In this document: one piece after another, positions 31,201 through 64,000 of the stretch | Numbering within the stretch: position 1 is the first letter of the stretch | Layout: each line of letters begins with the position of its first letter | Origin: Paramacrobiotus metropolitanus | Lineage: Eukaryota; Tardigrada; Eutardigrada; Parachela; Macrobiotidae | Direction: 5' to 3' | Assembly (NCBI RefSeq): GCF_019649055.1 | Contig: NW_026570362.1 | Span: 124,001 to 188,000, forward strand | DNA length: 64,000 nucleotides | Notes under the pieces: model-generated | What the model was told of the DNA's origin: nothing | Databases searched by the model: none | The model's input: only the letters and a program-made list of their open reading frames with translations | Program-made: the position numbers and the translations under genes

Positions 31201-31239
31201 TCGCCAGTACCGCGCTTCTGTTAACGCCTTCTTGATTTC

Positions 31240-35500: not shown

Positions 35501-35895
35501 GGTATTGGGTTGGCCGTTCCGGGCAATCCCTGCGTTCCGGCCTCCGACGTTCCAACGCCAAGTTGATGCGCTGGGTCGGGTAAGTCGGGCATTCGTTGCG
35601 TTCCGGTCCGGATTTCGATTTTGCCATTGTTGACAGAAATTCCAAGTCGTTCTGCCATTGTTCTGGCCGTTGTGGCTTCATCTGTTGAAGCCATCAATGC
35701 ACTGACGAATTCTTCTTCTGTACTGTTATGGTCCAGACCTAGTTGTCTGACCAAGGCATCCATCCGTTGGATGACTTCCCCTTCTGTTGTGGGTATGGGT
35801 GGTTCTCCCCCGTTAAAGTGCGGTTGGTTAGTGGGGTTATCCTTGTCCGGTGGTTCGGTGGGATGTCGCAGGTCGAATGAGTCACCGGGGCTCAT
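32530..35895 (-). CDS. E1 pol N-terminal ORF with aspartic protease (1121 aa)
   Basis: Open from ATG 35895, in the -1 frame relative to gag, whose stop is 5 bases upstream. Residues ~375-475 are a retropepsin: active site LDTGAETS (Asp 388) and a VLLGCDYL word near 460. A CRDCR cysteine pair sits at ~520-523 and a CIIC...HH zinc-finger-like segment lies about 100 residues further on. A very acidic, serine-rich region follows, containing PTTEVG repeats encoded by the E1 palindrome. The word SIPIPEAS occurs twice. The frame ends before the RT; in a working copy it would presumably continue. The long plus-strand ORFs here are antisense shadows. Confidence 0.85.
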   Translation of the reverse strand: MSPGDSFDLRHPTEPPDKDNPTNQPHFNGGEPPIPTTEGEVIQRMDALVRQLGLDHNSTEEEFVSALMASTDEATTARTMAERLGISVNNGKIEIRTGTQRMPDLPDPAHQLGVGTSEAGTQGLPGTANPIPQLGIGTSQVGTQEMPDLRSTNNVTAPPATESDAGRTGHGSWTGLPVRRNSTEQPRQGPRRGGPGRRFTQRGNRNFPNVSSGRATDRYAATMAAIDLTEESDGEVEIWETFPLEAQAPAHWLQQESGLSQQQPQPARTVAGPRTFVNLDYIWSQVRPTETSIEERIREQTRRFETPTDVLEDGVANRPQVHEVVAPEVEPIQGTLTPTEGGSASLIPVTPTVREVTFEKGTHKKPKTVRAWTHEIRIGPTPTMAMLDTGAETSLIEQRFCEQNDLPMQPLGHYTRILGVGGQVAFTVTHCCTVPVTLQGFTSHHTFHVQPNNADIPVLLGCDYLHSKFTFVLTPIPNPERPGGMTVVQSIPIPEASGTVITEARISRLDHPSNPPPNICRDCRDTNRTLIEEMQLHNAIEAYEERIRTGKLRPKKRILKTAVKSIPIPEASATEADAILEVQQKYRTWFTGTQHFLDRRTLEMLATLQQNGAVTTDQIQEAQRTCEPVLALAEDIDDEAWEWEDERVPIHRQYMEYGLPVPRPLEIPCQELGGALFSYMRQVQLYGESTTTAFWKRYGEDTSITRKIPDPLPPIMEHFPKEVKFVNDLKKPTEHTQIGEIDRPDRCIICNDNIDGVVRTLKTHHDLTWIDGRPSSPAPPQPERKVNSSRKTKSVVNQWLSNISSQPSDLEKQDEESRPTQPKETADQGAPTTEVGEGSAPPTTEVGHGNTPDVNPEDEQESEEYNSDGSDVQSSSDSPDTDSDNQPSEESEEEDDDEEFALSVRNCRSDKPRTDDSDDSSEEDEEPTYDVRLTKALRSVIHTEFIVDLPPEQTGQEKPVDVEQQAELEQLQILREFGGGQPEEHDLRPPTIVVQQLSTEQSTSVNLTDQQKSEQPRPQKVRIAKVNSITELNLGNKHPQVHHLALDPFIDSKPLDRQVVFNSERVSLPPYSTCSIKVRTAKPMDLMRPIYFCTLRRKHRPIRPIEAKIEIHDLRSTTAMG

Positions 35896-35925
35896 CGACC
35901 TTAGGCGTTTCCCGAGGAGTTTCCC
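35847..35925 (-). promoter_or_regulatory. -1 ribosomal frameshift signal at the gag/pol junction
   Basis: On the minus strand two copies of the slippery heptamer GGGAAAC (35925-35919 and 35913-35907) are both in the gag frame as G GGA AAC. The second is followed by a 6-base spacer (GCCTAA, containing the gag stop), then a stem GGTCGATGAG paired with CTCATTCGACC (one bulge) around a 9-base loop. Loop bases CCGGTG can pair with CACCGG at 35852-35847, giving a possible pseudoknot. After a -1 slip the frame is open into pol. Confidence 0.75.
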
Positions 35926-38900: not shown

Positions 38901-40571
38901 TTGTGTGTCAGCCAGGTCTTTTTCCGCGGTGGCCAGGCGTCTCTTCAGTTCGAAGACCGATTCCACTGACGTTGCAAGTGTACTTCGGAGTCGTTCGATC
39001 TCTTCGAAGTCGTACCGACATGGGTTGTCGGACCTCTTGAGATGACTCTCCAAATGTTCGATGCGGCGCTGTTGCGCAGCTATGCCATTGTTGGCCTCAG
39101 CCAGTTCCTTCTCCCATCGCTTCCGTTCGAGCTTGTGGGTGTCCTCCGATCGCGACATCTGATTCTCCGTAGAGTTAACGAGTTGGTCGGCCAGGACGAT
39201 TTGTGTTATCAAATCCTGGCATCGTTTCCGGAGTCGGTCAACGTCTTCGATCTTTTCTGGAGGAGTGGATGCGATCCACTTCCGTGCCGTGTACTCAAGC
39301 ATGCTTGCTTGGTACCTGTGGTTACCCAAGTGAGATGCCACTGGCGTTCGGAAGGATCCATCCCGGCTGCTGGGACGTGACACTTGTGTCGTGTCGAATA
39401 CATCGTCCGTGGGTGGCGGGGTTCCACTACCCGAGTCGCCAAGTTCGAACATAAGTGGCGAGCTCTTCTTCAGTAGGTCGGCAGGTCGACTTGTTGGCGA
39501 CTTGTCGGACTTCACCTTCGGTTGAGTTTCTGTTGCTCGGGTCGACTTGCCTTCTGTTGGCGAAGGTCGACTTAGCGGTGAAATAGCCTTTTCGTTAGGC
39601 ATCGGTATGTCGGTTGGTGATCCAGCCGGGTAAGGTCCGCTTCGTGGCGGAGCTTCGGTTTCTCCCGTTCTGCCCGGTAGTTTAGGCCACTGGATATCCA
39701 TATCTGACCTTGTATCGACTGGCTTCTTTTCCAGGGAGGTCGGTTGTACTTGACCGACTTGCTGTTGTCCGACCTTTGAGGTCGGTGGACTTCCATCCTT
39801 CTTGGTCGGCGAAATCCTCCCGACTTCTGTTGTCGGTTGGACTTTGCCAACTTCCTTGTTTGGTGATTGCTGTGGTCGTCCGACCTCGATTCCGACTTGT
39901 GTTGTCAGATGAGGTCCGACCTCCGGTTGAGGGTGACCGACCTCCGAGGTCGGTTTCCGTTGACCGTCCTTAGAGGTTGGTGAAGCCCTACCGACTTCTG
40001 TGGTCGGTTGGACTTGACCGATTTCCGTTATCGGTTGCTTCTCTCCGACCTTCGAGGTCGGTGAAGTCGCTCTACCCGAGTTGGGCGATGTCGACCTCTT
40101 CACGTCATCCGTCTGGTTGGGTGATGTGTGTCCGGCGTCGGTGACTTTGGTATTCGTTACCGACTCCTGAGCTTTCTGTGAGCTCAGTTGAAGTCCTTCT
40201 GTTGAATCCGTAGAGGTCGGTACACCATGTGGGTGTTCCGCCTCGGCATGAGACAATGTGGTCTCAGCCTGCAGCTTCTCCAATTCCCCCCCGGTCGGGT
40301 GGGACGGGGCTGCTAAGCCAGCTCGGGGCTCGAGGAACGTCTTGTCGTGGGCGTCCTCGAAGCTGTCATCGGACGTTGGATTGGAATCGGCGAGGAGGAT
40401 CCGCTCGTTGCGCTTCTCCCTTGCCTCGGCCGACTTCGTTGAGTCCGTTGATGACGGCTGACTTTTATCCTGACCGGAGTGCCGAAGTGCGTACGGCGCG
40501 TTGGAGGTCAGGCGCCGCGAATAGTCCGTGTTGAACTTTCGGGCGTATTCGTTTTCCTTCGGGTTCGACAT
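35901..40571 (-). CDS. E1 giant Gag polyprotein (1556 aa)
   Basis: ATG at 40571; an in-frame TTG lies 24 bases upstream. Domains from the ATG: low-complexity N-terminus with PT(T/S)EVG repeats (~160-280); a long coiled coil (~445-750); a proline/glutamine-rich part with YPDQQGRG repeats (~980-1035); a capsid-like helical region (~1060-1240, around LPEFDGD...L.GWL and RYRFGQETPEQYYD-type words); an RGG/glycine-rich stretch (~1365-1395); and a zinc knuckle C1430-x2-C-x4-H-x4-C1443. Typical Gypsy Gags are 250-500 aa, so the coiled-coil N-terminal half is an extension. It would form the particle and bind genomic RNA through the RGG and knuckle. Antisense frames at 36.1-40.5 kb are shadows. Confidence 0.88.
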   Translation of the reverse strand: MSNPKENEYARKFNTDYSRRLTSNAPYALRHSGQDKSQPSSTDSTKSAEAREKRNERILLADSNPTSDDSFEDAHDKTFLEPRAGLAAPSHPTGGELEKLQAETTLSHAEAEHPHGVPTSTDSTEGLQLSSQKAQESVTNTKVTDAGHTSPNQTDDVKRSTSPNSGRATSPTSKVGEKQPITEIGQVQPTTEVGRASPTSKDGQRKPTSEVGHPQPEVGPHLTTQVGIEVGRPQQSPNKEVGKVQPTTEVGRISPTKKDGSPPTSKVGQQQVGQVQPTSLEKKPVDTRSDMDIQWPKLPGRTGETEAPPRSGPYPAGSPTDIPMPNEKAISPLSRPSPTEGKSTRATETQPKVKSDKSPTSRPADLLKKSSPLMFELGDSGSGTPPPTDDVFDTTQVSRPSSRDGSFRTPVASHLGNHRYQASMLEYTARKWIASTPPEKIEDVDRLRKRCQDLITQIVLADQLVNSTENQMSRSEDTHKLERKRWEKELAEANNGIAAQQRRIEHLESHLKRSDNPCRYDFEEIERLRSTLATSVESVFELKRRLATAEKDLADTQTALVESELAAGTFHQQLKQANEEAEVYRNEVDRYIVELKQADDEVDRQKYRIEQLEREMETLLVRAGRQLMAHYGQQPASPDRSRAITDLEQANAQLADQVHGLNDVLKEEQRLRAQLEHSLAEAQKVYEAQQNRIAHLEVRENDLYNYGLDADKYIDDLNRYIDEMTTYTDDLDTEVRCLQEETKHLEQSRTEPPSYRTSMAADFHFEPSQTVRDILWDIKPKEEKKEQNFFVGVVTTNPLIGTPPQQQPLPHRPEPERNTSTAAPHVPTSNVPTTTTATSGTYTSTTYATHTSMHAPAPTTSHPNGPAPNQWGAGRRLGERTSSHPNMDDFGRLTISDSDYRRERARSYNNDLPPGGRSGQPNPERPPADYPQDSQNVPRFRPTEGRAPPRRPFRSQHGRVNDLPPGFYQQPQRPPRAPAPQPEPYPAGYPDQQGRAYPDQQGRGYPQQQNYGYPEQQNQYYPDQQGRGYHAEQGWEANPPPPPYAADAQQAATRAFQETMIRVCARGRTQKLPEFDGDHNKLEGWLKQIRRFHAEAQEWHESDHTFMTDLISRLEGQAAQWHRDTAGAEPDGGWPVNVWLTKFEERFGDKNKEINAVTAMAKRKYRFGQETPEQYYDAMMNIKSRCDTITDQMALFHLKDNIHEPKLRDDDTITYAGLATPVELRDYIRQFVNGKEMYDVVKGSRDTDYARVRATTPTPAPLPQAPVQTVYQPYMMPGYQSPSATYVQPTTPITPPAQMMPVQQPTWAGVAAVNLAAPQPAAGAPVNNYGGPSPGSGSNQNDGSSGYNQNPNQGYSAYGQSPTQGFGGGGYGRGKGRGGGNRGRGNRGGGGNPQGNRPSQAQQGARQFTTYADKMEQLFLQWTLADSFTCHFCKFGNHPQARCAFIGTRVQDNPNRRWYEDWHTRYLTGGPLGSANPNSAQIVPPPRQRQQGGGSGGAGYGNQQAGSGNGSGGNRGNSGGGQQGSPEQRQMLPPHQPFGSPSPNNGPARGNSSGNA

Positions 40572-41813
40572 TGTTGTCGGGTTAGGTCGGTTCAAGTGGA
40601 ACCAACGAGAGACTTGTACTGTTGTACAGTAAATTGAACAATCCCTTATGTGGGGATGTTCAATTGAATCAGGAACATCTTTAGGTTCAGGAACTTCCGT
40701 GGGTCAGGATGGTCCGACTTGATGTTGTTGTTGTTGTGTTGATGTGTCTGTGTATGACTCAGTACACAACGTTACAATACAGTACTATGGTACAGTACAG
40801 TATGATAAGGTACTACAGTAGAGTACGTCCTATACTACTGTGCTGACCAGTATGACGTCACAGGGCTAAGTGGTCTTGCACTTCACTGCCTACGTCACAG
40901 AATGCGAGCCGCGTGCAAAATTTAAAAAATGATGATTCACGCCTATGTTAAGCGTATGGGAAGTTTCCCCTGCACGCTGATTGGCTAGCCTCAAAGTACT
41001 GAAAATCGGGCGTTCTGACGTCACAAGGAAATTCAAGAATTTTCGCGCTTATTTTCGCGGAAAAACAAGAATATTTTTAAATCGATCAGAGATGTTTTCT
41101 GGTCGAAATTTTAATTTTTAAGCCGTTAGAAATAATTTCTAGGTTCTCAGAAATTTTTCTGACGGTGGAAAGTCCGTCAAATCAAGAAAGTAAGAAGATG
41201 ACCGACCTCTGCTCCGTTACACAGGGTGGTCAGTTAGGTCGGTAAAGTAATTTTGTAGGTTGGTTTCTCCGACAAAAATTAACTTTTTACCGTAGAAAAA
41301 TTATTTCTAGTTCTTAGAAATAGGTTTCAACCATTAACAACTAGGAATTCTACCTAGATTCGACCTGTATTGACCTGTAACCAGGACTTTACCGGTTCGT
41401 TACGGTGTCCGTGGAGGTCGGTGATCCGCCGTTGGGAGGTCGATTTCCGTTAGAGTTGCGGGTCGCCGTTCAAGGCGAAGGTCCCCGATTGTTGAGAGGC
41501 TCCTTCCGCGCTGCAGGCTACTGTCCGAGCCTGATCCGTCAGTTGGGATTGGGGAAGTTCCCGTTCGTCCGTCTGGGGCAGTCAGCCGAAGTGCTCTCCT
41601 TGTGTGGAAGAGCCAAAAGATAGGGCAAGCGAAGGTGGCAGGGATCGCTTTTGCGATCAACCTGTTGCTACCACAGTCGCTAGACAGCAAAGACCAGGTT
41701 GAAGCAGAGGCTGCGTTCGCAGTCAATCTGACTTTCAACCACGGGTTCTTCAGGGTTCTCCGCGAAAATTATGCCTTTACCGTCTCCTCAAAGGATCCGG
41801 TAGAACGAAAAAC
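40572..41813 (-). other. E1 5' leader
   Basis: The untranslated leader between primer site and gag ATG. It contains a GTAC/TACAG-rich stretch (40740-40860), AGAAAT...ATTTCT inverted words near 41130-41160 and 41290-41330, and GACC(T)...AGGTCGG words of the palindrome family near 41200-41260 and 41410-41440. No ORF of note is seen in the element's sense. Confidence 0.6.
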
Positions 41814-41831: not shown

Positions 41832-42283
41832 TGTGACAGGCAAGCACAGAGAGCTCACAGATGACTTTATTGTACAAATAAAGTGGAGCAAATGCCGCGT
41901 GATTGCGGGGAAAAACACAACAAAAGCCAATGTCTGGCAGAAAAGTGAGCAGTCAAGTTGCTGCGAGCTAGTTCTAGAGCGTAATGAAATGTAGAGAAAG
42001 AAATGTGCTGGCGGCAACGGCGTCACGCTGTCCAGACACATGGAATGTGAGTGCGCAGACTGGACTCGTATCCAACGCGAGCGAATATACGCTGAGTCAT
42101 ACAGCGAGAGAGAGGAGCGAGAGAGCAAGTATGCTCAGTGAGTGCGCCCGCGGTGTATCCGCATAGGCGGAGAGTGCAGTGCAGCCACTCACGTACGTAC
42201 AAGAGAGGGCGAATCAGCATGTGTGCAGTGATACGCATACGCAAAGTGGCGTATCTATCACGCAGGCTGTCGTGCCTCTAACA
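41832..42283 (-). repeat. E1 5' LTR (right)
   Basis: 452 bases, TG...CA. It drives transcription leftwards in this orientation. A GTATATTC word and a CTCTCTC-rich pyrimidine run occur in the U3-like part on the element strand. AATAAA for 3' end formation is at 41871-41866. See the left LTR for the uneven divergence. Confidence 0.95.
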
Positions 42284-42354
42284 AAACGATCTTCATGGTA
42301 ATGTGCATTTACGTGCAAAATTTGAAAGGGATCGGTCCATAATGAGACTTTTGG

Positions 42355-42572
42355 TAAACCTGAATGCATTTAAACTTTTTGGAATTTTGATACCCTCATA
42401 ACTTCGCAACCGGATGTTGCGCGCGCAAACGGTTTTCTCACCTAGGTATACAATTCTTCTGGCTACAAAATACCATAAAGCAATGCAAAAAAGTGTTTGG
42501 AAGCGCGCAACAGCGAAAGTTCCCCTGGATGTACACGAACTTGGTGCTATGTACCGGGCCAGATCCCTGAAA
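42355..42572 (+). repeat. Dispersed repeat family D1 copy
   Basis: Shares ATGCATTTAAACTTTT, CAACCGGATGTTGCGCGCGC, AAACGGTTTT and, at its right end, GTACCGGGCCAG with the copies at 105-240/935-1045 and 47.2-47.8 kb. It begins about 70 bases outside the E1 5' LTR. Confidence 0.65.
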
Positions 42573-47176: not shown

Positions 47177-47772
47177 ACCCGGTACATAGAACTAAATTCT
47201 GGTATATCCACGAAAACTTTCAATTTCGCGCCATTCCAAACACTTTTTGGGATTACGTTGTGGCGTCCTGTAGCCAAATGTTGTGCTTACAGAGGCGACA
47301 GGCGTGAAACCGATTGTGCGTGCAACACCCGGTTGCGGATCCACCGAGCTCCTCGTATGAGGGTAACAAAATTCCAAACAGTGGAAATGCATTCAGATAC
47401 ACCAAAAGCCTCATTGTGGACCGATCCCTTGAGATTTGCATGGAAACGCATGGAATCTCGTGCATTTCTGCCACCGAGACCCTTGAGGTTGGATGTGACT
47501 GCGCCCGCCATTAAAGCGAGCCGTAGAGGCACTTAGAGGAAATCCCTATAGCTAGTGAGTTTCGCTTTTCCGCTGAAAGTTTACATATTTGCTATCTAAA
47601 TTTTGCACGGTTTTCAGAACAATGTAATGCAAAATTATTTGTATACATTCAACGTATACAAATCATTTAGCTTCAGAATGACATAACTTATTTCAAAAAA
47701 GTAATTCGGAGTGCGCGAAAGCGAAAGTTTTAGGGTATGTACTGTATATCATTTTGACACATGTACCGGGCC
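47177..47772. repeat. D1 element with inverted ends
   Basis: The left end ACCCGGTACATAG...AAAACTTTC and the right end (reverse complement GGCCCGGTACATG...AAAACTTTCGC) are inverted copies of the D1 terminus over about 80 bases. The 430-base interior is GC-richer with a plus-strand frame (47147-47536) of unknown meaning. No target duplication is obvious. Confidence 0.6.
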
Positions 47773-49478: not shown

Positions 49479-49575
49479 GCCGGTACGTAACACCAAATTT
49501 GTGTACATCCACGGGAATTTTCGCTGTCGCACACTCCAAAACACTTTTTTGTATTGCTTTATGAATATTAGCACT
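49479..49575 (-). repeat. Dispersed repeat family D1 terminus, inverted
   Basis: Reads GCCGGTAC, TGTACATCCACGGGAATTTTC and CACTCCAAAACACTTTTTTG, the complement of the D1 right end. It directly follows the long hairpin at 49395-49463. Confidence 0.6.
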
Positions 49576-49644: not shown

Positions 49645-50744
49645 GTGCACCATGCGCCGTGCACGCCCTGACATAGAATCGATAGCGTTATTGCTTTTGC
49701 TTGTGACACTCCAAAAATCCGCTTAAACTTTTCAAAATTAGTTTGGTTTTGTATAAATTCAGAAAATGGTAATAAATTCCGGAGAAATGCAATTCCACGA
49801 TAAGGCCTCAGTGGAGAAGGTAGTCCCAGATATATCGGTGAAACAAGCATTTATGTACAAGATTTTTGCTAAAAACAATCGTTGTAACGACAAGTACATC
49901 GCGCTCAGAGATCACCGGTTCTGTACAAGAGTTACGCAAAGTTACGAGTCACGAAAGCCACGCAAGCACAGCGAATTGAACAATAGCCGCCGCCTTCACT
50001 GCATGTACATGGCAAGAGCTAAAATTTGGGACGTTATTGACTTTTGCCGAAAACCGTTGGTAACTCGGTAATTGATAACGATGGTGCCGTTATCAGTTGG
50101 AAAGCAAAGAAAGTGTCCCGATTTTGCCGCAGCCGTTTGTACCCATATCAATAGAGATTGACTCTGCGCAGCGTGGAACGGCTATCCACTGGCGGTGGAC
50201 AAAGCCCGGATGCGGCTGCAAACATTTTTAAGCGAGCTGTGGCTCTGCCGCCAGTGGGCACTGGGCAACCGACTGTCACTGCGCACAGTTGATCAATATG
50301 TGCACAAAACAGCTGTTGTAAATGCGGGGCACTTTGTTTGCTTACTAATTAAGATTGCTGGCACTCAGATCGAGCAGAGCTGACCGTCGTGGGTAATACG
50401 AGTTGGCTCGATCACCGACGACGGTGCCCGGTCGCGACGTTGCTCCTCGCACGTATAATTTCTAGAAGGTCATCATCGAAAAGAGACTCTAGCTTCGCCC
50501 AGTTAAGCCAGCCATCGACGCTGAGGTAACTAAAAGGGATCGACTAATATTTCCCAGACAACTGCGGGTGAGATGGATTGTTTCGACAAATCGCTGACAG
50601 GGTCGCCTGACACCAGAGATCCCGTAAAACTACATACTTCAAGTATGTAACTTGATATGGTCCCGTAAGACTATCCTGTTTTTTGCTAACTCTCCTGTTT
50701 TTTCTCGTTTTTCATGGTCTATTTGGATATATGCAAATGAAGCA
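49645..50744. other. No recognisable gene
   Basis: A plus-strand frame at 49766-50071 (101 codons) has ordinary-looking composition but no motif I know. A GC-richer island lies at 50180-50460 with partial inverted words (CCACTGGCGG). Confidence 0.4.
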
Positions 50745-51439
50745 TACGAGGAGGGGGTAAATACACGGGATAGACAGAAAAAACGGCAATAACAAGGGAT
50801 AACCATTCACGTGTTGTGCAGCACGGCCAGCCACCAAGGGAAGGCAGTCCAGCGACACTACATAAAATTCAGGCTTTGAGACCCGAGCTGCCTTCTCCGT
50901 ACGCTTCCATGTTAAACTTAAACACCTGCATCTTGCACATTTCAGGATTAAACCGCACAATCAATGGCTCAAAAGAACAAGAAAAAATTAACAAGATTTT
51001 CGATACCACGCAAACCGTGATCTATGAGAAATAAGACAAGCTAGAGCCAATTAAGTTTTCCATAGACAAAGCATAGGAGCTCCGTGGAAGCAAACCATCC
51101 AACTCCTATGCTTAGTCTACGATACTCAAATGGCTCAATCTTGCCTCAGTTTTCGTAAGTGGCAAGTTGTTTGGTATAAAAAATCTTGTAAATTTTTTCT
51201 TGTTCTTTTGAGCTATCGATTGTGCGGATTAGTTCTGAAATGTGCAAGACGAAGGTGGTTGAATTTAACATAGAAGTCTACGGAGAAACAGCTCGAGACT
51301 GGAGTCTCAACGGCTGTTCTGCACTGTGTTACTGAACTGCCTTCCCTTGGTGGCTGGCCGTGTTGCACAACACGTGAATGGTTATCCCTTATTATTGCCG
51401 TTTTTTCTGTCTATCCCGTGTATTTACCCCCTCCTCGTA
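50745..51439. mobile_element. Large foldback element
   Basis: The two halves are inverted copies over about 330 bases each (50745-51075 and 51105-51439) at roughly 80% identity, meeting at a short centre. Outer words are TACGAGGAGGGGGTAAATAC and GGGATAACCATTCACGTG; inner words are TCAAAAGAACAAGAAAAAA and AAGCATAGGAG. Each arm also carries the relic coding words seen at 1046-1200. Confidence 0.8.
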
Positions 51440-52687
51440 CGCACGGAGGGTAATTTTTATTAACTCATTGCAAAAGCATTTATGTCTAGCCACAACCTCA
51501 AACTCTAGGCGGCTGTGGGCAGCAAGCACAAGGAGTACTGAAATTGCACTACCGTCATCCCTTCGTATATGTTAAGACTAGTCTCACATACTCGTATATT
51601 ATTGCGTTTACGTACATATCTTGCCTTTAGACGTTCTCACTGTGGCACCGTATAGCGCTACGCCTCCGGAAAAGTATCTTTTTGTATGATTATAATACAA
51701 AAAGCACCTTGAGCTTCTATTCGTATTATGACATTCACCACTCGCCAGTGCAGTGAATTGTCCTAAGATGAATTGCCTTATTGCCAAGAAAAGTCTTACG
51801 CAATACAAACCCCAAATACCATCAGATTCAACACATCTCGAACCTGTGCTATCTTATTTTTTGAAAAGAAGTTTCTTTTGAAAAAAGTTGTTCTGCAACG
51901 ATCGAATTTTAAAAATGGCCAACAAACGAAGCTGTACGTGTGTGACCTTACTGCAATTATTTTCGAAGCGTACAACATATTTTACAGAGTAAAATGAGTT
52001 ATCTTTGGCATTGCTTCACATGCTCTGGCGTCTACAGTTACCTCACTGGAAAATACGCAAACTTTGTGTGATCTAAAATTTCAACGTATTTCAATGTAAT
52101 TGTCGGCATATTATAATATTATGACACAGTTGTAATGTTTCTGTTCTGTATGTCATATGGGTTTTCCTGCGTAAACAGGTTTTCCCGTTTTCTATGCAAA
52201 CCTTAAAAAACCTTATGTACTTTGTTGAAAGTGATTTCCGTGACTTTCGAAGTGGGCAATCACAGTGGTAGCCCGCGCTGGACGTATATGCAAACGTAGA
52301 ACATCGCTGGTCGTGCTAAGCGTCACATCTTCCCGTGTCGAATGATCGCATCTGCCACGATATAATTTTACTAATTTTGCTCCCAAAAACTGTTGATTTT
52401 TTTCCCCTTAAAATTATCTACGTTGGCGTCTGCCGTATTGATGCTGTCTATGTAGCTGTTAAAACTATGTTAAGCACAAGTACACGAAATAATTCTGGTA
52501 ACCAATGAAATCCGGAAAACCAAGGGTTTCTCAGAGATGAGGTCAGGAAACACGGGCGCTATCTGCGCAGCGGAAGTCAGGAGGAAACAAGCAGGCAGGA
52601 TCCATACATGTGGACATTAAGAAATCTGAAAAGAAACCAGATGACTAGATTGCTGTATGTGCCAGTATTAAGATCATCAGTAGTACT
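51440..52687. other. No gene; one shared repeat segment
   Basis: Segment 51530-51572 (around TTGCACTACCGTCATCCCTTCG) has a direct counterpart at 53836-53877. The rest is AT-rich without recognised features. Confidence 0.45.
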
Positions 52688-54344: not shown

Positions 54345-55042
54345 ATGTCCGCGCTCTGTTCAGGGGTTGGTTTCAGACCTTCTGGCTTCTGAAGGTTTCC
54401 GAGACGCGGTAGTTTGATCTTGCTTAAGTTATTTGAGTTATTGCCAACGTCGAACACAGGGCGGGTTACGAGTCTCAATAGTTAAAAGAAGCTCCAAGCT
54501 AAAACATTGGTTGCTGAAATCGTTGTAGCTACTTAGAATGTTATAAGCATCAGTAAAAATGACCGGTGTCCGACTCCCTCAAGCACTGCTTGGTTCATTA
54601 TTGACACTTCGAAACCTTTCCGTTTTAATGCTGTTGAATTACCTACAAAAAGGTATACACCATAACAAGATTTGGAAGAAAACTAAACGGCGCGCACAGA
54701 GTGATTTTTAAATTTATTTTGTAAAACTGCCCGTGAAACAGGGTAATATGAAATACGGAAAAGGCAATAAAGACTTATTATTGCAGCTGTTTGAGCAGAA
54801 ACCTAGTACGAGCAGTGCACGGACAGTTTTGAAGTATAGAACTGGGCAAATTCTTTAATTAAATTTTAACTCCATTTACTGAACGTTGCTGGCTTTTATG
54901 TACTGCAACAAACTTTTGTACGTATATATTTATATAAACTTTTATATTATACGAGCATACATACTTTATAACACGTATAATATACGTCATATCGATTTCC
55001 GATTTTCCCGATAAGGAAATGATCGATTAATAACGTGCGTTT
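54345..55042 (+). other. AT-rich region upstream of the plus-strand E2 ORFs
   Basis: No gene. TATATTTATATAAAC near 54925 could serve as a TATA element for the ORFs that begin at 55043-55070, and TTTATAATTTTAATTACAG (55046-55064) looks like a 3' splice acceptor. The 3' LTR of E2 would be expected in or left of this stretch if the ORFs belong to E2, but it cannot be recognised without the partner LTR. Confidence 0.4.
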
Positions 55043-55504
55043 ATGTTTATAATTTTAATTACAGTAATAATGGCTTCGCAGAGACCGACGGAACAGGAGC
55101 AGTGGCAAGGACATTCGCGGATTTGTCGCGACTGCAGAGAGAACACGCCAAAGCGCCGATGCCATCGTCATATTGCAGAAGATCAATCGGAATTGCTGGA
55201 TCGATACCGTGTGTGGCGAGATGAGGTGGTGTTCGAAGGGAATCTCGACTGTTACCTTCACCTGCTGCAAAATTGGGACCACCCTTACCTGTCGACAAAC
55301 CAAAGAGAAATCGCGCGCGCTGCAAACGAGCATACTGACAGTCGACATGGAAACTGGGCCAATGCCCCACGGCCACAAGAAGTACCGATGCCACCGCGGA
55401 ATCGAGAAGAACAACGAGCCAGAGAAGAAGCAGACGCTGCGGATCGACAGCTGGGTGAACGAAGAGAAAGAGAACGACGCGACAGAGAAATGCTCCAGCG
55501 TTAG
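55043..55504 (+). CDS. E2 ORFa: CRxCREN motif protein (145-154 aa)
   Basis: ATGs occur at 55043 and 55070. The second follows a T-rich tract and AG and gives MASQRPTEQ, so I favour 55070 as the start of a spliced message. Residues 20-35 carry RICRDCRENTPKRRCHRH, a C-x2-C...C-x2-H zinc-ribbon-like cluster. A helical region with VVFEGNLDCY follows, then a highly charged arginine/glutamate tail. The order cysteine motif, V..GN..xY helix and charged tail matches E1 ORFa (23574-24089). It ends at a TAG (55502-55504), after which the same frame stays open into ORFb. No named family is recognised. Confidence 0.75.
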   Translation: MFIILITVIMASQRPTEQEQWQGHSRICRDCRENTPKRRCHRHIAEDQSELLDRYRVWRDEVVFEGNLDCYLHLLQNWDHPYLSTNQREIARAANEHTDSRHGNWANAPRPQEVPMPPRNREEQRAREEADAADRQLGERRERERRDREMLQR

Positions 55505-55555
55505 AACGAACCACGCAGTGCATCCAGTGGAAGTTCACGCGAGCGTCCACCGATC

Positions 55556-57619
55556 ATGCGATACTTTATTACCGGAATCGATGAATATGGGAAGGAATCT
55601 GAATCGCTTGAAATCGCGACCCATTCCATGAACATTCACGATGTTAGAGAAGCGGTGAGGAATCAGGATAATCAGACGCAACAACAGCAGCGTGAACACC
55701 GTAAACCGATTCTGCCGCCAACTCAAGAAGAACTCCATCGTCCATTTCAACGAATCCGAGTAATCCATAATACGGGACCGCGACTGATGAAACCGTTGGA
55801 AGAAGATTATGACGATCCATCCTTCAACGACCCGATGAAAGATCCCGCGGTGCAGCGAATGATGAAAACTCCACAGTTTCCACGCCCAGGAAGCCGTGCT
55901 TACCTTGATCGCGACCGTCCAGTAATGGATAGCAATCGCCCAAGCGGAAGTCGTGGCCCAGCAGGAAACCGACGCCCAGTTGCTTTCGGGAATATTCGAA
56001 GTGATCGCGGAATCGACTTGGAAACGCTGAAGCCGAGAGGAGCCGGAGAAGGGCCAGAACGAGAAGTGAGCTTCGATTTCAACGATTACCAGACGGAAAC
56101 TAACCTGATTATGGACATGTTGGATGTGGATGTACCCGATCACCAGTATAAGAAGATCCAAGATATCGTCGAGCAGTTGGTAATGAATGCCCATCGATTT
56201 CTGCGCGAAGTTGAGTTCGAAGCGGCATATATGAATTTGGCAAATACCAGTCAGTTCCGCCCACGACCAGGAGACGCAACCCGACGATATTCAGCACGAC
56301 GAGCGAACGGATTGCGAAGTTCCTTACGACTGGAAGAACTTACCGAATTGATTCAACATCCGAAATATGAAGAATTGTTCCAGTTCGCGATGCGACCGAT
56401 GCCCGACGCCGAAGCTTTTGCCGCACAGTTTCTTCATGAAAATGCGAATCCAGCGATGTATCTGTATGCGTGCCGAGTCATTGCGGGATTGGTGCGAGCA
56501 ATGGACAAGTTCAAAATCGACAACTCTGAATTGTGGCCAATGCCAGAACGAGGAAACACGCAGTCGACGACTTACCGAGCGAAACCGAAGGTATATTTAC
56601 GACGTGCGCTGGCAGCGATCCTTGGCCATTACGACAGCCATAACAGACTCCATCATAACGACCCAACTGTCCCGGAACTGTATTACCTACTCGAACGAAT
56701 CGGGCGTCCTCAGCGGATGATCGATGTGGCAACTTCCCTGCGCCGACTGATGGAAGGAACCCTCAACGATCCGGATATTACGCCATACGATTTAAGCTGC
56801 GCAGATTACATTGATGAACACTTGAAGAATATCGAGGAAAGAGAGAAGGATAAGTCCTGGAATAAAAATAAGAAACGTCCTTCAACGACAGCGCAGGACT
56901 TGGATCGCGAACTTGAAGGGTTGTCAGAAGAAACAAAACGCATTCGCCGGGAAGAGCATGTCGAAAACCGGGGAAATCGTGATCGTCGTCCTGGCGGTCT
57001 GGAACACCTAAATCGAAACCGTCATCCTGGCGGTGTGGATAACCCGAATCGACTCCCCCAGTCAGGTGGTTATGGATGCAACCCAAATCGTGATCGCCAA
57101 TCAGGCATTCTGGAAGACCCAAATCGTAGTCGTCATATGGGCGGCTTGGATAACCCAAATCGTAGCCACAAGTCTCGTGGCTTGGACGTCCCAAATCGAA
57201 GTCGTCATATTGGCGGCATGGATTCCCCAAATCGCGATCACCGAAAGGCTGATCAGGGATCTCGACGAACGGAAAAGTCAATCAGCGAAGAGTCAGATTC
57301 CGGGGAGGATAAACCGAAAGGGCGAGGAAACATGCGGCAGGATGTTGAAGTCCCGAATTTCCAGAAGTCAACCGAAATGGAAATCGACTCAAACGACAAA
57401 GAGAAGGGACAGAATAAGAAGCCGCACGGTGACGATGAGAAAATGGACACGTCGGCGCCCGCTAATGCGCCTGAACAGAGCAGTGTCGGAAACGTGAATA
57501 ACTTACCTGTGTGTCCATCGCTTGACGACATGGAACAGTTGAATCTGGAAGAGGTTGGTTTGGTGAAGAAAACCGATGATGATAAACCGGACGAGAAGCC
57601 GGATGATGAAACGAAGTGA
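55556..57619 (+). CDS. E2 ORFb: helical-domain protein with 12-residue repeats (687 aa)
   Basis: ATG at 55556, in the same frame as ORFa and separated from its TAG by 17 sense codons. Residues ~175-400 form the shared helical domain: TNLIM, DIVEQL, RANGL, AQFL, NPAM, LGHY..H, PEL, IGRPQR and LRRLM, in the order found in E1 ORFb. Residues ~474-562 are seven 12-residue repeats of the type NR.R..GGLDNP. The C-terminal part is acidic and lysine-rich. No membrane segment, protease or polymerase motif is seen. It runs convergently with the minus-strand pol, 2.2 kb apart. A nucleic-acid-binding or structural role is possible but not shown. Confidence 0.8.
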   Translation: MRYFITGIDEYGKESESLEIATHSMNIHDVREAVRNQDNQTQQQQREHRKPILPPTQEELHRPFQRIRVIHNTGPRLMKPLEEDYDDPSFNDPMKDPAVQRMMKTPQFPRPGSRAYLDRDRPVMDSNRPSGSRGPAGNRRPVAFGNIRSDRGIDLETLKPRGAGEGPEREVSFDFNDYQTETNLIMDMLDVDVPDHQYKKIQDIVEQLVMNAHRFLREVEFEAAYMNLANTSQFRPRPGDATRRYSARRANGLRSSLRLEELTELIQHPKYEELFQFAMRPMPDAEAFAAQFLHENANPAMYLYACRVIAGLVRAMDKFKIDNSELWPMPERGNTQSTTYRAKPKVYLRRALAAILGHYDSHNRLHHNDPTVPELYYLLERIGRPQRMIDVATSLRRLMEGTLNDPDITPYDLSCADYIDEHLKNIEEREKDKSWNKNKKRPSTTAQDLDRELEGLSEETKRIRREEHVENRGNRDRRPGGLEHLNRNRHPGGVDNPNRLPQSGGYGCNPNRDRQSGILEDPNRSRHMGGLDNPNRSHKSRGLDVPNRSRHIGGMDSPNRDHRKADQGSRRTEKSISEESDSGEDKPKGRGNMRQDVEVPNFQKSTEMEIDSNDKEKGQNKKPHGDDEKMDTSAPANAPEQSSVGNVNNLPVCPSLDDMEQLNLEEVGLVKKTDDDKPDEKPDDETK
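56975..57244 (+). repeat. 36-bp in-frame minisatellite in E2 ORFb
   Basis: Seven diverged 36-base units each encode NR, basic residues, GG(L/V/M)D.P. All unit lengths are multiples of three (one unit is 39), so the frame is kept, which argues for selection on the protein. Confidence 0.85.
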
Positions 57620-58675
57620 CGTGATGAATACGATGCGCAGTGATGAAACGGCCAACCACGACAGTTTAACGATAATCGCCCCGTGAAACTGTAAGACTCC
57701 TCCCGGAATCCATTTTACGCCCAGTGGAATAAAGTTTTCATTATTGTTCCGATTTATTAGGCATTTAAGAATGCATTTGATAACGATTGAATTGTGTTAA
57801 CGATTTTGACGATCGTCTTACGTTGTGATTTGGCTAACGATTTTCTAATCGTGTGATAAAATGCGCATTTGACTTTTGTTTCTCATTAACGATGATCTCT
57901 AGGATCGGAATTGTGTTTTTACGATTTGCTTATTCATGTTAAAATCGCCATTAAGCAGCGAGTCATCCCCCGATGCCGATGTGGATCCGATAGACATCGG
58001 AGGACCTCCGTGTCCCCACCCGTGGCATGCCAGAGCGTTCGGCTGAGCTCATGTCGGTCTCGGATTGGACCGCCGATTCGGAGCTGCCGAGCCGCTCTTG
58101 TGCAGCGATCTCCATTCATCGGATTCCACCGATTCATTACGATGATTTTGGCCTCAGTGAAAGATCTCTAGATTTTCACTTCGGTGTTTTTCTGTTTTTC
58201 TTTTCGCTGATGATTGGTCTTTTTGTTTACGATCTAATAAAATACGATTTTATTCGATCTCGTTTGGTTGCATTTCCGATCCCGATTCTCGCTCACGTAC
58301 AAACGTATCGCTCAAATCAGCCATCCTTTCACGCCATTGGCGGTAGCGTGATATCATCTCCAGCGTGATGTCGTCCGGCCCGGCTTAGGCGACCGGATCT
58401 GTTATATAGAGCAACTGGGTATCGTAAATAAATAAACAAAATAAATAACTAATGAAATTCAGAGGGACACCTAACTTCCGTATCGTTTAGAGAGAAAACC
58501 GTTTTTGCTTACCGGTGTGTTCTCTTAACGGTACGGTAGTCGGGCTTCGGGATCGTGGTGCTCGGTTCCGAGCTTCCGTCGGCGGCGGCGGCGGCCGCCG
58601 GGAACGGCATCGCCAGGCAAAAGCGAGGACCAGGAGCAGGGTTATTATGGAGCCAGCCAGGTATCCGGTTCCGAA
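57620..58675. other. Intergenic region between convergent E2 ORFs, part 1
   Basis: Non-coding. AATAAAG at 57730 lies about 110 bases after the ORFb stop and could end its message. Words TAACGATT, GACGATCGTC and AATCG recur between 57770 and 57920. Short frames on both strands are not convincing. Confidence 0.5.
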
Positions 58676-58746: not shown

Positions 58747-59795
58747 AATAATTAGTACGTACCTTAATTTAGTAGGAAGATAAATTTAGCATGCAGTGTA
58801 TTACACGGATGTTGTGCGTATTATGCGGATATTATGTTTATATACTTTCTGGTGTTGCCGTAAGGATAATTACTCTACATATGCTTACGGCTACGCAACA
58901 AGGAAATCCATGAGCGATTGTCGGCACCGTTCCCGACATCGCTCATGCTGTTTATTACAATTGTAAAACTGGAGTCTTTTGAATTAAGTAAATTCCTTCC
59001 TCAGGAAGCAACGAAAAATTGGCTCATTAGTATTGCTGCTGAGAAATTGGCTCATTAGTATTGGTGTGAGAATAATGCTGAGCAATTTCTCGTTACTTCA
59101 GCATGAACGGTAATCGGTTTGTTATATAATTGTCGTGATTCTTAAAAAGCAAATCGACAAAACAACTACGGCAATAATATTAGAAATTTTCTGTATTAGT
59201 CCAATCGAAATAATCACAAAATAATCATGACAAAAAATAATAATCACAAATCGGTTTTCTTTCGCTGAGAAGTTTGTAGTGCCAAGGAGAGTGCGTTCAT
59301 CCATATGATACACATTTTCATCATGACTACCCAGCTATACGATTGGTCATTGGACACAAAACCGAAGCCCATATTTTTGGGCGCATTGATGCGCTAACCG
59401 CTGCATCCACAATTGGATCGATAATTATGCAGGTTAATCTCCACCATGAAATGATTTCTTCGTGAAATCACCACCATGAGCGGTTAGTATGCGAATCGAC
59501 GGAATTAAATCAACAAATTTCCGAAATTAAATTAAACACCACCATGAACCACAATCGATGTTGTAGTTCACGTCGACAATCAAACAAATTCATTAATATT
59601 ATTATTTTTTTCGATTTCTGCCATAAAATTTAATTAAACAAATCGATGCAGTTACAAAATCGATACTCGAATCAATTCGGAAATCACACCACAAAAACAA
59701 ATCGATTAGTTTCCAACACGTTATTTGCGCTGCTGCGCCGGCGACTGTTGTGCATGCACACACTTTAGCCACAGTATCTACGTCGCTACATCGAT
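58747..59795. other. Intergenic region between convergent E2 ORFs, part 2
   Basis: Non-coding. It holds a second hairpin (58909-58947, CATGAGCGAT...ATCGCTCATG). A 20-base direct repeat AAATTGGCTCATTAGTATTG occurs at 59016 and 59044, inside an inverted repeat (59005-59025 with 59080-59099). CACCATGA words recur between 59440 and 59550. This is the 3' untranslated side of pol. Confidence 0.6.
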
Positions 59796-62700
59796 TTAAT
59801 TAAATCGCGGTTTCTTCTTCTTCTCCCTTTGGAGCTTCTGAAGAAACGCTTGATCTTCTGGCTCGATCGGCTCATCCAGGGCGTTATCGACGGCTTTATC
59901 TTCATCAATTTTATCGGCCATGCCATCTTTCTGCGCAGCGTGCACAGGCTGGGCGGGGTCATCGGCCTTCGATTTAAACAGCGGATTTCGCAATTTAATT
60001 TTTAATTTACCGCTCGATTTTATTTTCGGCTCTTTACCATCGTTATTATCGTTTTCCTTATTCTCTCCACCATGAAGGGTGTTATGAGAGGACTTATCGG
60101 TTTCATCCGCAACAGGTTCATCGATTATCATCTCAGTTTCTGCTGCGTCATCGACTTCTGCCACTTCATCGTTATTCGCATTTACAAGTAAATCGTCATC
60201 AGAAACATACGGCTTTAATCGGGAAACTGTCACTCTTATCTTTTCTTTACCGCCCTGTTTCTGAATTATCGCTGCACCATCGTATGGGAAATCGATAATT
60301 TCATACGGACCGTCGTAACGATCACGTAAGCTTTTCGATTCACCTTTCTTCTTCGGAATACTCAGCCAAACGGCATCACCGATAATAAATTCACTTTGCG
60401 TACGCTTTTTATCGAATCGATTCGCGGTTTTATCGTGCTCTTGCTGAATATAAATTTTAGCTAATTCATGCGCTTCATTCAAATTCGATCGAAGAGCATC
60501 CATGTACTCCTTAATCGTACCGTGCTCGACAGGAACATTCGTTTTCGTTACGGTGTCGGCGGGGATCACCTGTTCCCGGCCGTACAGCATATAAAACGGA
60601 GAAAATCGCGTCGTCGCCTGTACAACACGATTTCTAGCTGATACGATAAACGGTAGGACTAAATCCCAATCGGTCTTATTTTTATCTTTAACATAAATCG
60701 ATAACGAATCTGCGATCGTCTGCATTTGCCTTTCGACCAGGCCGCGCCCGATCGGATGGTATGCAGATCCAAAATGGTGCGATATTTTCAGTTCACGTAA
60801 TAACGATTGCATAAGGCGTCCCATGAAATTTGTACCTTGATCGGTATTAATCTCATGAGGCACACCATACGGTAAAATTACATCGTATAGCAGGAAGTTC
60901 GCTACTTCCCGTGCAGACTCCGTTTTTATCGGTTTAGCGATTACGAACTTTGTTAACTCATCGACAACGACTGCAATGTGGTCATTACCACGTTCGGTTT
61001 TAGGAAGCGGTCCCTTGATGTCCAGCTGGACGCGAAAGAACGGCTCACCGACTTTAACGTCTCGCAGTTTGCCAGGCGGGGCGCGACGGGGCGCCTTCCG
61101 GGCGTGGCACCCGCGACACTTTCTCACATAATCGTCAATATCGGTTGTCATATTATGCCAATAATATCGTAAAGAAATCGCATCGTAAGTTTTCTTTAAA
61201 CCGAGATGTCCACTGGCTGGACTATCGTGCATTCCTTTCAGAATATCGAGTCGCCAGTGTTTCGGCACAACAAATCGTCGGTTAATTCGATCATTAGCTG
61301 TAGATAATCGATACAGTACACCCTGATACATTTCGAACTCTGAATGTTGCTTTTTTACGAGCATACTTTCGGCACGACTTTCGATATCATGGATAATTTT
61401 CTCGAGACTGGGATCGCGTAATTGTTCGTTACGAAGGAACGTGTACGAGGACTCTTCCGGTCGCATCTCGTCGGCGGGATCGCTCAACGACATTACTCGT
61501 ACCGTTCGACTACTAAATTTATCGTCTTTTAATTCATCACATTCATCGACTTCCTCTGGAGGACCGACAGGGTTGCGACTCAACGCGTCAGCGTTTTCGC
61601 ACTGTTTTCCCGGTCGATATTTTATCGTCATATCGTGGCTACCCAATAAGAGTGCCCATCGCGTTAATCGACCATTCGTTCCTTGTTTATTCGATGCAGA
61701 TCGTATTAAATTCGTTAATGCCTGATGGTCAGTTCGTACCGTAAACGGCATATGATCGATATAATGGCGAAATTTCGTAACTGCAAAAACGACCGCCAAG
61801 CATTCGAGTTGATTAATCGGATACTTCTGATCTGCTGGCGTTAATAAGCGACTTGCGTAAGCGATCGGGTGGTCGTCTTGATGAAGAACTGCACCAACGC
61901 CTATCGTACTAGCGTCACACTCGATTACTGTTGGTTTCAACGGATCGAATTTTACCAAGCAAGGCGCATTCGTCAGCGCCTGCTTTAACGATTCAAATTC
62001 CGCATCGTGGACCGAAGTCCAATCTTTAACGACATCCTTTTTGTTTTTAAATAAATCGTACAAGTTTCGAGTGATTTTCGCGTAATCTTTCACGAATTTT
62101 CGATAGTAATTGGCTAAGCCAAGAAACGATCTTAATTTAGTTTCGGTAGTCGGCTTAGGGAATTCTCGAATCGCTGAAATCTTATCCTCATCGGTTCGAA
62201 TACCACTTTCCGATATAACATGACCGAGAAAATGTAACTCGGTCTTAGCGATGTGACACTTCGACGGTTTAAGCGTTAAACCAGCTGCACGCAATCGCTC
62301 GAATAATCGTCGTATTTTTATGAGTAATTCCGCTATCGTTTTAGCAGCGCAAATCAAATCGTCGAGGTAACCGAAAATTCCTTCGTCGCGTAGCGGACCG
62401 AGAATCTTATCGATCATCGCCTGAAACGTTGCATGCCCGTTACAAACACCAAACGGCATACGAAGGAATTCGTAGAGGCCGTCCTGCGTTATAAACGCAG
62501 TTTTCGCAATCGACTCTTCATCCATCGGGATTTGCCAGAATCCCGCGGAGCAATCGAAACCACAAAAATATTTATTGCCGGTTACCGCATCGAGTAAGAC
62601 ATCGGGGTTTGGGAGGGGATAGCTGTTCTTTTTCGTAACGTTATTTAAAGCGATATAATTAATACAAAATCGAGTACCGATCGTCCCGTCTGGGTTCTTT

Positions 62701-64000
62701 TTCACCGCGAGAACCACGGGAAAACACCAGTCGGAAATCGATGGTCGGATCACGCCTTGCTCAAGCATTTCTTCGACGTGCTCTTGGATGAAAGCACGGC
62801 CTTTCCAGCTCGTTCGATGAGGTCTCGATTTAATCGGTTTCGCATCACCAGTATCGATTGTATGTTTATAACACGTAACATTTCCGTACGGTCGTTTCGA
62901 CGTAGGAAATAAATCGGCAAATTCGACAAACAATTCCTGAACCTTTTTGTTTTCAGCATCGGTTAAATCGGGATTTATATGCATCTCATTAATCGATTTT
63001 AAAACCTCGCTGTGCTCTTCCAGCGTACGCGGCTTCACGTCTGCTGTAGCAACTACGGGGTCATCGTCCTCTTCGTAAGTTTCGATCACGCCAACCCAGG
63101 CGCCTTTCTTGACTTTCCGTCGAGACATCGAATGATTCGATACGAGTACTTCGAATGTACCATCGTTCGGTTTCACAAGCCCACATTCCGGCACCATTTT
63201 ACCGGAAGAGTACAGACTGGGATTACCGATGAAAATGTGCAACGGTGTGTCCAACTCAGCATTCCGCCTCGTTGAAACTGACACCCACGTCGCACCTGGA
63301 TCGATCGTGAAGTCATCGACTGCGTAAACTTTCACCATTTTTCGTTTCGGGCAAGGATTAGCGATCTCACACACTTCGAACGCATCCTCAAATTCCCATT
63401 TATCGGTATTCGATTCAATTACAGGTACCGATTTCTGTGAATTTTCAACTTTATCGACTGGCGTATTATTCCAAGCAGCAACGATTTCTTTCGGAGTTTT
63501 ATCGATCAACATTTTATCGTATTTATCCGCTTCTGCTGCATATTTAACTGCGGTTTCCTTCATCGATTGGCCGATTTTTAAAAGAGCCGACAAAGATGTT
63601 GACGCAGCGATTAAATTCTTATTCGAATATCCTGGATACGTATCGTGGATATTATGTCCTCTGCTTTTAAAAACATCATCGCTTTCTCGATAGTTAATCT
63701 TAACAGTATCGTCAATCTTCGGATTTTTATCGTTTTCCACTATGGGAGGTTTATCGGGTTTCGATATGGGATCGCTCGCTAGGGGCTTCTTGCTCTTTTT
63801 CATGCATGAATGCACGATAGGAGGGCCAAAAGACGGGAGGGGCGTATCGGTGCTTTGGATGTCCGGTGCAGCCGCCGCAGGGCTGCTTACCGGTACAACC
63901 GTGACGATTTTAGTAAATTCTGGTAGCTCGTCTTCAAATCGTATTCGTTTTGGCGTTTTAGGCTTAATTTTATCGTGAGTTATCGATAGAAGTTCCTTAA
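59796..64000 (-). CDS. E2 Pol polyprotein: RT, RNase H, integrase (3'-complete, 5' end outside window)
   Basis: The frame is open from the right edge to the stop at 59796 (at least 1400 codons). Numbering from the codon at 63815: reverse transcriptase ~300-580 with FDCSAGFWQI (Asp 421) and YLDD (483-486); RNase H ~625-745 with Asp 634, Glu 671, Asp 696, Asp 743; integrase zinc domain His 863, His 870, Cys 900, Cys 903; core Asp 932, Asp 992, Glu 1028 with exactly 35 residues between the last two (DD35E); then a GPY/F module near 1169. All catalytic residues are present and no frameshift is seen, so this copy could encode active enzymes. The protease should lie upstream, outside the window. 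There is no chromodomain; the tail is acidic then lysine-rich (EKKKKPRFN). Confidence 0.95.
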   Translation of the reverse strand, partial: KELLSITHDKIKPKTPKRIRFEDELPEFTKIVTVVPVSSPAAAAPDIQSTDTPLPSFGPPIVHSCMKKSKKPLASDPISKPDKPPIVENDKNPKIDDTVKINYRESDDVFKSRGHNIHDTYPGYSNKNLIAASTSLSALLKIGQSMKETAVKYAAEADKYDKMLIDKTPKEIVAAWNNTPVDKVENSQKSVPVIESNTDKWEFEDAFEVCEIANPCPKRKMVKVYAVDDFTIDPGATWVSVSTRRNAELDTPLHIFIGNPSLYSSGKMVPECGLVKPNDGTFEVLVSNHSMSRRKVKKGAWVGVIETYEEDDDPVVATADVKPRTLEEHSEVLKSINEMHINPDLTDAENKKVQELFVEFADLFPTSKRPYGNVTCYKHTIDTGDAKPIKSRPHRTSWKGRAFIQEHVEEMLEQGVIRPSISDWCFPVVLAVKKNPDGTIGTRFCINYIALNNVTKKNSYPLPNPDVLLDAVTGNKYFCGFDCSAGFWQIPMDEESIAKTAFITQDGLYEFLRMPFGVCNGHATFQAMIDKILGPLRDEGIFGYLDDLICAAKTIAELLIKIRRLFERLRAAGLTLKPSKCHIAKTELHFLGHVISESGIRTDEDKISAIREFPKPTTETKLRSFLGLANYYRKFVKDYAKITRNLYDLFKNKKDVVKDWTSVHDAEFESLKQALTNAPCLVKFDPLKPTVIECDASTIGVGAVLHQDDHPIAYASRLLTPADQKYPINQLECLAVVFAVTKFRHYIDHMPFTVRTDHQALTNLIRSASNKQGTNGRLTRWALLLGSHDMTIKYRPGKQCENADALSRNPVGPPEEVDECDELKDDKFSSRTVRVMSLSDPADEMRPEESSYTFLRNEQLRDPSLEKIIHDIESRAESMLVKKQHSEFEMYQGVLYRLSTANDRINRRFVVPKHWRLDILKGMHDSPASGHLGLKKTYDAISLRYYWHNMTTDIDDYVRKCRGCHARKAPRRAPPGKLRDVKVGEPFFRVQLDIKGPLPKTERGNDHIAVVVDELTKFVIAKPIKTESAREVANFLLYDVILPYGVPHEINTDQGTNFMGRLMQSLLRELKISHHFGSAYHPIGRGLVERQMQTIADSLSIYVKDKNKTDWDLVLPFIVSARNRVVQATTRFSPFYMLYGREQVIPADTVTKTNVPVEHGTIKEYMDALRSNLNEAHELAKIYIQQEHDKTANRFDKKRTQSEFIIGDAVWLSIPKKKGESKSLRDRYDGPYEIIDFPYDGAAIIQKQGGKEKIRVTVSRLKPYVSDDDLLVNANNDEVAEVDDAAETEMIIDEPVADETDKSSHNTLHGGENKENDNNDGKEPKIKSSGKLKIKLRNPLFKSKADDPAQPVHAAQKDGMADKIDEDKAVDNALDEPIEPEDQAFLQKLQREKKKKPRFN

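Follow-up and report, generated by a model that had tools for sequence, protein, structure and literature searches.

In the genome of the tardigrade Paramacrobiotus metropolitanus (assembly of 169.8 Mb), a stretch of 64,000 nucleotides (G000:C142:124001-188000, referred to as the window) carries two long terminal repeat (LTR) retrotransposons of the Ty3/Gypsy type, E1 and E2. Both have an additional gene that an earlier note, made from the sequence of the window, had presented as an undescribed module of two proteins, ORFa and ORFb (ORF, open reading frame). In the current analysis we have identified ORFa and ORFb as the two ends of one protein, ORF3, whose frame is broken in the two copies of the window but open in other copies. 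The anatomy of the gene can be stated with near certainty: it is one gene behind pol, on the same strand, under purifying selection and, in elements of the E1 type, spliced. The product is suggested to be a regulator, made from spliced mRNA, of the unspliced RNA of the element, like CERV of the element Cer1; we give this reading a probability of about 35%.

ORF3 is a single gene

The frames described in the earlier note are present. E2 has its N-terminal half at 55043-55504 of the plus strand, with a likely start at 55070 and an acceptor-like ...TTACAG ending at 55064, and its C-terminal half, with charged repeats and an acidic tail, at 55556-57619. The E1 counterparts are on the minus strand: the N-terminal half, with a Cys motif of four ligands, occupies 23574-24090 (its frame runs down to 23574) and the C-terminal half 22054-23541 (22054-23565 from stop to stop). 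The motif words listed for ORFa and ORFb of both elements are found in the order and places given.

That these frames code for two proteins did not hold. An E1 ORFb query matches a P. metropolitanus protein, LOC129596996 (P0007, 780 residues), with 60% identity over the whole query. In P0007, as in many copies with a single frame, ORFa, a linker and ORFb form one chain. P0007 and P0008 are two ORF3 copies that bear NCBI gene names. A genome search with P0007 gave 790 candidates, of which 58 places of the E1 type were scored (59 rows, one dropped as a second piece); all 58 align over at least two thirds of P0007. An open frame of at least 700 residues is found in 49 of the 58 and freedom from internal stops in 27, both properties being combined in 24. 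Further lineages have ORF3 as single frames of about 580 to 1059 residues. The halves of E2 share one frame and are parted by a single in-frame stop; in the sister copy C37 both lie in one frame of 725 residues, in which a stop occurs further on. E1 ORF3 is disrupted twice, just behind the splice acceptor and between the halves, where the linker is partly missing. Two separate proteins are ruled out by P0007 and the single-frame copies, C37 included.

Position behind pol

ORF3 is a conserved additional sense frame behind pol. Among the 58 E1-type places, 29 have a scored pol at most 25 kb upstream on the same strand; in no case does one lie on the opposite strand or downstream, and about 0.32 would be expected by chance; 76 of 2436 pol candidates were scored for this count, and the other 29 places are without a listed pol. 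In the clade of E2, 33 pol places were scored out of 2268 candidates (five of 38 rows having been dropped as second pieces of a listed pol), and in 26 of the 33 an ORF3 lies at most 15 kb downstream on the same strand. One of the remaining places, E2 of the window, has it on the opposite strand and six have none listed; at one of these six, C112, an ORF3 lies 13.5 kb away on the other side and on the opposite strand. As a control, a listed ORF3 stands downstream on the same strand in at least 6 of 150 scored integrase places (of 1178 candidates), so that ORF3 marks only a part of the elements. For the E2-clade and integrase counts, second pieces and five weak places were left out of the ORF3 list and a similar weak place in C43 was kept; restoring the five leaves 26 of 33 unchanged and takes the control from 5 to 6 of 150. 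The residence in LTR elements proposed earlier is borne out by both counts behind pol. A 3' LTR behind ORF3 is seen in E1 and E2-type copies only.

The association with pol also bears on the proposal that ORFa and ORFb are members of a family of host genes merely near the elements, to which the NCBI gene names of P0007 and P0008 would lend some colour; in view of 29 of 58 and 26 of 33 places, compared with at least 6 of 150 integrase places in general, and of the many near-identical dispersed copies, this is very improbable.

The plus strand had been taken as the natural orientation of E2 ORF3, which it is not. The segment 54986-59408, on the plus strand, comprises ORF3, the 3' LTR (58025-58331, plus strand) and about 1.1 kb taken as 3' flank, and is inverted relative to E2 pol (59796-63998, minus strand; reverse transcriptase, RNase H and integrase by Pfam). 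This follows from the order and strand in C37, C80, C7 and C39, where ORF3 follows pol on the same strand; at the window junction, 54986 is the point expected to join 59409. As the whole piece is turned, the antisense look of E2 ORF3 is secondary, and an antisense accessory gene is rejected in favour of a local inversion. The inversion itself may be an assembly error. E2 (window 59409-59753) lacks, and C7 largely lacks, about 1.4 kb that C37 and C80 have between pol and ORF3, as seen by comparison with L011, L012 and L014.

Homology and domain features of ORF3

Common ancestry of the E1 and E2 modules is upheld by the alignment of their profiles over 218 columns with a score of 32.7 (E = 3.8e-6), where 100 column shuffles reach 12.5 at most. 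By BLASTP, ORFb of E1 and of E2 match with E = 6e-5 over 55 residues. Profiles of four lineages align in all six pairs over 208-232 columns, with scores of 32.7-141.9, E1 versus E2 being the weakest; identity between lineages is 24-33% in distant matches. The RNase H domains of the two elements are 54% identical over 173 residues. With elements otherwise so divergent, the earlier view of a module conserved and not recently copied stands.

ORF3 has near its N-terminus a Cys-x2-Cys...Cys-x2-(Cys/His) motif, accompanied by a helical segment; a long linker leads to a core domain, and the tail is acidic. The motif C-x2-C-x7-12-C-x2-(C/H) is complete in eight of nine aligned sequences, among which P0007 and E1 represent one lineage, and partly missing in L026; its spacing differs from that of the CCHC zinc knuckle of gag nucleocapsid. 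The linkers are charged, and clusters of basic residues stand behind the core in eight of nine proteins, a count made with no chance comparison. The core is predicted, at low confidence, to be helical. The predicted model of E1 ORFb has a pLDDT (predicted local distance difference test) of 41, and that of P0008 has block means of 73-88 for residues 31-100 and a poor core. In a locus of another lineage (L027:3456-6632), the core domain is repeated in tandem within an ORF3 of 1059 residues, in three near-identical copies.

The highest hydropathy over 19 residues is 0.88-1.36 in eight of nine ORF3 proteins and 1.76 in L028, near the C-terminus. The near copies L006, L007, L011, L012, L014 and L017, for which the pattern used gave no start, are outside the set used for hydropathy and acceptor sites. 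The statement that the product is not an env-like membrane protein is thus supported by the absence of a strongly hydrophobic segment from eight of nine proteins. That it is not gag is compatible with the weak test made, in which ORFb aligns with the gag capsid region no better than shuffled sequences do.

None of the four ORFa and ORFb frames of the window reaches E 0.1 in Pfam, and eight family members gave there single-member matches only, the best (E 0.019) to an unrelated family. The best match among PDB sequences has E 3.4, and P0002 and P0003 have no match among viral contigs. A set of 5.8 billion proteins, in which only word-sharing candidates were scored, has nothing above chance besides two P. 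metropolitanus proteins. With a limit of E 10, the fold search with the P0008 model gave 19 matches in PDB and 76 viral ones, but at 0.001 it gave none. The label "undescribed" fits the searches of Pfam, PDB sequences and the 5.8-billion-protein set, and a literature search that included the accessible portions of PMC11071193 and PMC11191345 found no published account of ORF3 in tardigrade elements.

Splicing of ORF3 and the putative ORFX product

The earlier note had placed the start of the E1 module near 24089, where we find a splice acceptor. The first exon lies at 28188-28349 of the minus strand. It has 162 bases, or 54 codons (MSGR...TPLPQ), with the shared ATG at 28349 and the last base at 28188, and ends in CAG|GTACGC; the same exon is found in C176, C152, C183 and C69. 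Exon 2 starts at 24090 behind TTTTAACAG. The intron (24091-28187, minus strand, 4097 bases) has GT...AG ends and holds, in another frame, a remnant recognised by words like those at the start of ORFX, the long frame described below. In C176 the intron is exactly absent and the joined exons form an open frame of 786 residues shortly behind an open pol; C152 has the exons likewise joined. Exon 1 and both splice sites (GT, AG) are present in E1 and C183, the donor in C69 and the acceptor in C54. By this anatomy E1-type ORF3 is spliced, the 54-codon exon joining exon 2 across the intron. The intron, which holds the body of ORFX, measures about 10 kb in C69, and spacing gives a similar length for the majority of the other copies for which a pol is listed.

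A tree of eight ORF3 sequences places the intronless copies apart: C176 groups with C183 and C104, and C152 with C60 and E1, at supports of 1.000, and C54 and C40 are separated from these two groups with a support of 0.839. Since C183 and E1 keep exon 1 and both sites, and C54 the acceptor, the simplest reading would be two independent losses of the intron, in C176 and C152. Of the eight sequences of the tree, the intron state was read in E1, C183, C54, C176 and C152. Exact loss implies that spliced RNA was reverse transcribed, and on this anatomy the splice would occur in the germ line.

Between pol and ORF3, E1-type elements have a long frame, ORFX, that can reach about 3,300 residues (C183, L037:3-4784 and L040; C69, L041). 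It ends 193-674 bases before an E1-type ORF3 in 22 of 29 scored places (of 1531 candidates; six of 35 rows were dropped as second pieces). In C69 the ATG of exon 1 (411980) is in frame with an ORFX match at 417248-421867, with 3296 codons from the ATG to the end of the match; the figure of 3302 residues for the open frame is the one reported by the tool, and on it rests the openness of the middle of the frame. Retention of the intron in C69 would thus give ORFX, and its removal ORF3, from the same ATG. The last 1594 residues of ORFX have no Pfam match above chance and no match in E1, and profile alignment reveals no relation of ORFb to them or to the gag capsid.

A pyrimidine-rich acceptor-like site is situated just before the shared ATG in C69, C183 and C176, with a similar one in E1. 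At eight loci of three lineages the acceptor-like sites before the ORF3 start rank within the top 0.4-1.5% of 2968 background ATGs; one of the eight, L022, has ACG at the start. If used as an acceptor, the site before the shared ATG would turn ORFX into the product of a single splice and ORF3 into that of two, a pattern known from complex retroviruses.

Selection and exchange of the ORF3 segment

Purifying selection, a check that the earlier note had called for, is indicated by ratios of nonsynonymous to synonymous substitution (dN/dS, or omega) of 0.08-0.23, a value having been obtained for 33 pairs. Omega is 0.08-0.18 in the 28 pairs among eight E1-type sequences, 0.19-0.20 for E2 versus C37 and C80, 0.12 for C37 versus C80, 0.23 for L019 versus L020 and 0.12 for L021 versus L023. 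Among five sequences of other lineages, eight of ten pairs gave no value, dS being saturated. The omega of pol is 0.09-0.11.

E2 ORF3 is 75-77% identical to six near copies, which are 91-96% identical among themselves, and E2 pol is 93-95% identical in DNA to pol of C37, C80, C7 and C39. Compared with C80, C37 and C7 in windows of 100 bases, E2 has 61-85% identity from 55000 to 57200, 85-94% up to 57600, and at least 94% from there to 58300 apart from one window of 87%. For ORFb the dS of E2 is 0.80 (versus C80) and 0.84 (versus C37); for pol it is 0.16-0.19. These values point to an exchange of the E2 ORF3 segment as a cassette, most simply by template switching. Fast evolution under positive selection was considered and rejected, the contrast in dS and an omega of about 0.2 fitting exchange. 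Relic pieces on both strands, close together and mostly 79-89% identical to E2 ORF3, occur at C11:1842180-1844171 and are possibly the remnant of a donor sublineage.

Proposed function of ORF3

A real intron in the genome of the element means that intron-bearing RNA must be exported from the nucleus. Together with the lack of a strongly hydrophobic segment, the basic clusters and the likeness to CERV, this leads us to rank an RNA-export regulator first, a particle protein second and an antagonist of silencing third. ORF3 would be translated early from fully spliced mRNA, enter the nucleus and bind the unspliced RNA of its own element. In the manner of CERV in Cer1, it would then help this RNA to leave the nucleus and to serve as genome and as mRNA for gag-pol.

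Several observations weigh against such a role. For the first splice, the acceptor before the ATG is no more than a sequence pattern, and the acceptor-like site ranks at 5% in E2 and 10% in L028 and is absent in L027. Exon 1 of C183 and the part of ORFX read there lie in different frames. C176 and C152 are intronless and keep an open ORF3, so that the gene may do something besides exporting this intron. The core domain has no confident structure model in the two models made, and the comparison of ORF3 with Rev, Rex and CERV is by description only.

A wider proposal, which we hold only tentatively, is that the layered expression of complex retroviruses arose independently in a clade of giant LTR elements of tardigrades. 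Three kinds of RNA would be made: gag-pol RNA left unspliced, a message spliced once for the protein of about 3,300 residues and one spliced twice for a Rev- or CERV-like regulator, which would begin at the same ATG and be a swappable cassette of an otherwise unknown family.

It is possible though less probable that ORF3 forms part of the particle, as a second protein of the nucleocapsid or tegument kind that coats or packs a very long genome; its Cys motif would bind nucleic acid and its core would oligomerise. The near-complete conservation of the motif (eight of nine), the charged linkers and the natural triplication of the core in L027 are in keeping with this, and a genome of at least 24 kb may need an extra packing protein. 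However, the motif is no CCHC knuckle, E1 already has a gag-like frame of 1600 residues, and ORFb aligned with the gag capsid region (hhalign) scores 22.7, where 60 shuffles reach 22.6.

It is rather unlikely that ORF3 is an antagonist of host silencing, of the small-RNA or chromatin type, exchanged as a cassette while the host adapts. The whole-cassette replacement in E2 and the strong divergence among lineages would agree with such a history, but omega is low, the sign of an arms race being absent in the pairs measured, and no domain known from silencing suppressors was found in Pfam. A diverged Env-like fusion or membrane protein would share with ORF3 the position and, by anatomy and in E1-type elements only, the spliced message, but is hardly credible given the low hydropathy of all but L028 and the long charged parts.

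Other features of the E1 and E2 elements and the window

Both elements have a pair of LTRs around gag, protease, reverse transcriptase, RNase H and integrase, in that order. E1 is a decayed element at 17740-42283 of the minus strand, delimited by its LTR pair and recognised by Pfam and by comparison with E2 pol. Its 5' LTR (41832-42283, 452 bases) and 3' LTR (17740-18188, 449 bases), on the same strand, are 97.3% identical over 447 aligned bases. The open gag-like frame (35901-40703, minus strand) matches, in its part 1110-1276, the sequence that precedes the protease in E2-type elements. It is followed on that strand by a frame with a retroviral aspartic protease (32530-35895; PF13975, PF13650 and PF00077 above cut-off) and by a frame-broken pol (29461-32466), in which E2 pol matches pieces of reverse transcriptase, RNase H and integrase in several frames, RNase H being found also by Pfam. 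The open frame of E2 pol has 1583 residues and runs past the window edge. The 5' LTR of E2 lies outside the window, at C142:192992-193300, and the two E2 LTRs are 99% identical (309 bases).

The window also contains about five tandem units of 119-122 bases each (5056-5658) and nested inverted repeats with arms 95% and 79% complementary (50742-51442), perhaps a non-autonomous DNA element. A dispersed repeat, 71-88% alike, occurs in both orientations at 42326-42558, 47178-47430 and 49480-49563.

Comparison with known systems

Complex retroviruses have singly and multiply spliced mRNAs, nested frames chosen by splicing and a regulator made from fully spliced RNA. The tardigrade elements resemble them in their nested frames and, as proposed here, in a regulator from fully spliced RNA; the likeness is one of layout.

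The nearest studied case is CERV of Cer1, a Ty3/Gypsy element of Caenorhabditis elegans, which is encoded behind pol, made from a spliced mRNA, nuclear and needed for the export of genomic RNA (PMC10309623). ORF3 is like CERV in its position, in being apparently spliced and in not being an Env protein, a comparison by description and not by sequence. CERV is a larger protein whose C-terminal half is coded in the env position, and no obvious homology of the Cer1 frame outside Caenorhabditis was reported; the accessible part of that paper mentions neither a Cys motif nor an alternative giant product for CERV (PMC10309623).

The extra frames described in the available portion of PMC7264820 are like ORF3 in position, in conservation in most copies of a family and in the splicing reported for some. 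Unlike ORF3, they are called env-like and some have transmembrane segments, again by description. LTR elements of bdelloid rotifers have varied non-env ORF3s behind pol that are common to unlike elements; those named in the part of the account available are GDSL esterases, DEDDy exonucleases or Env-like (PMC5408684), whereas ORF3 of P. metropolitanus is without a Pfam match above chance. The giant Burro LTR elements of planarians likewise exceed 20 kb and have extra protein domains, but these are mainly in ORF1, and a spliced ORF3 is not described in the accessible text (PMC6431247).

Many LTR elements carry a frame of unknown use in the env position, and among the non-Env cases compared here, as far as the portions of the reports available go, only CERV has a tested role. 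In the ORF3 family there are dozens of open copies from several lineages, together with an intron of measured length, a start codon that also serves a giant protein, a natural cassette swap and an animal in culture. If ORF3 does regulate unspliced RNA, Rev-like control would have arisen again outside retroviruses and nematodes; if it is no regulator, the same elements lend themselves to tests of its real role. The putatively switchable splicing of ORF3 recalls the complex retroviruses and offers an approach to the function of such extra genes.

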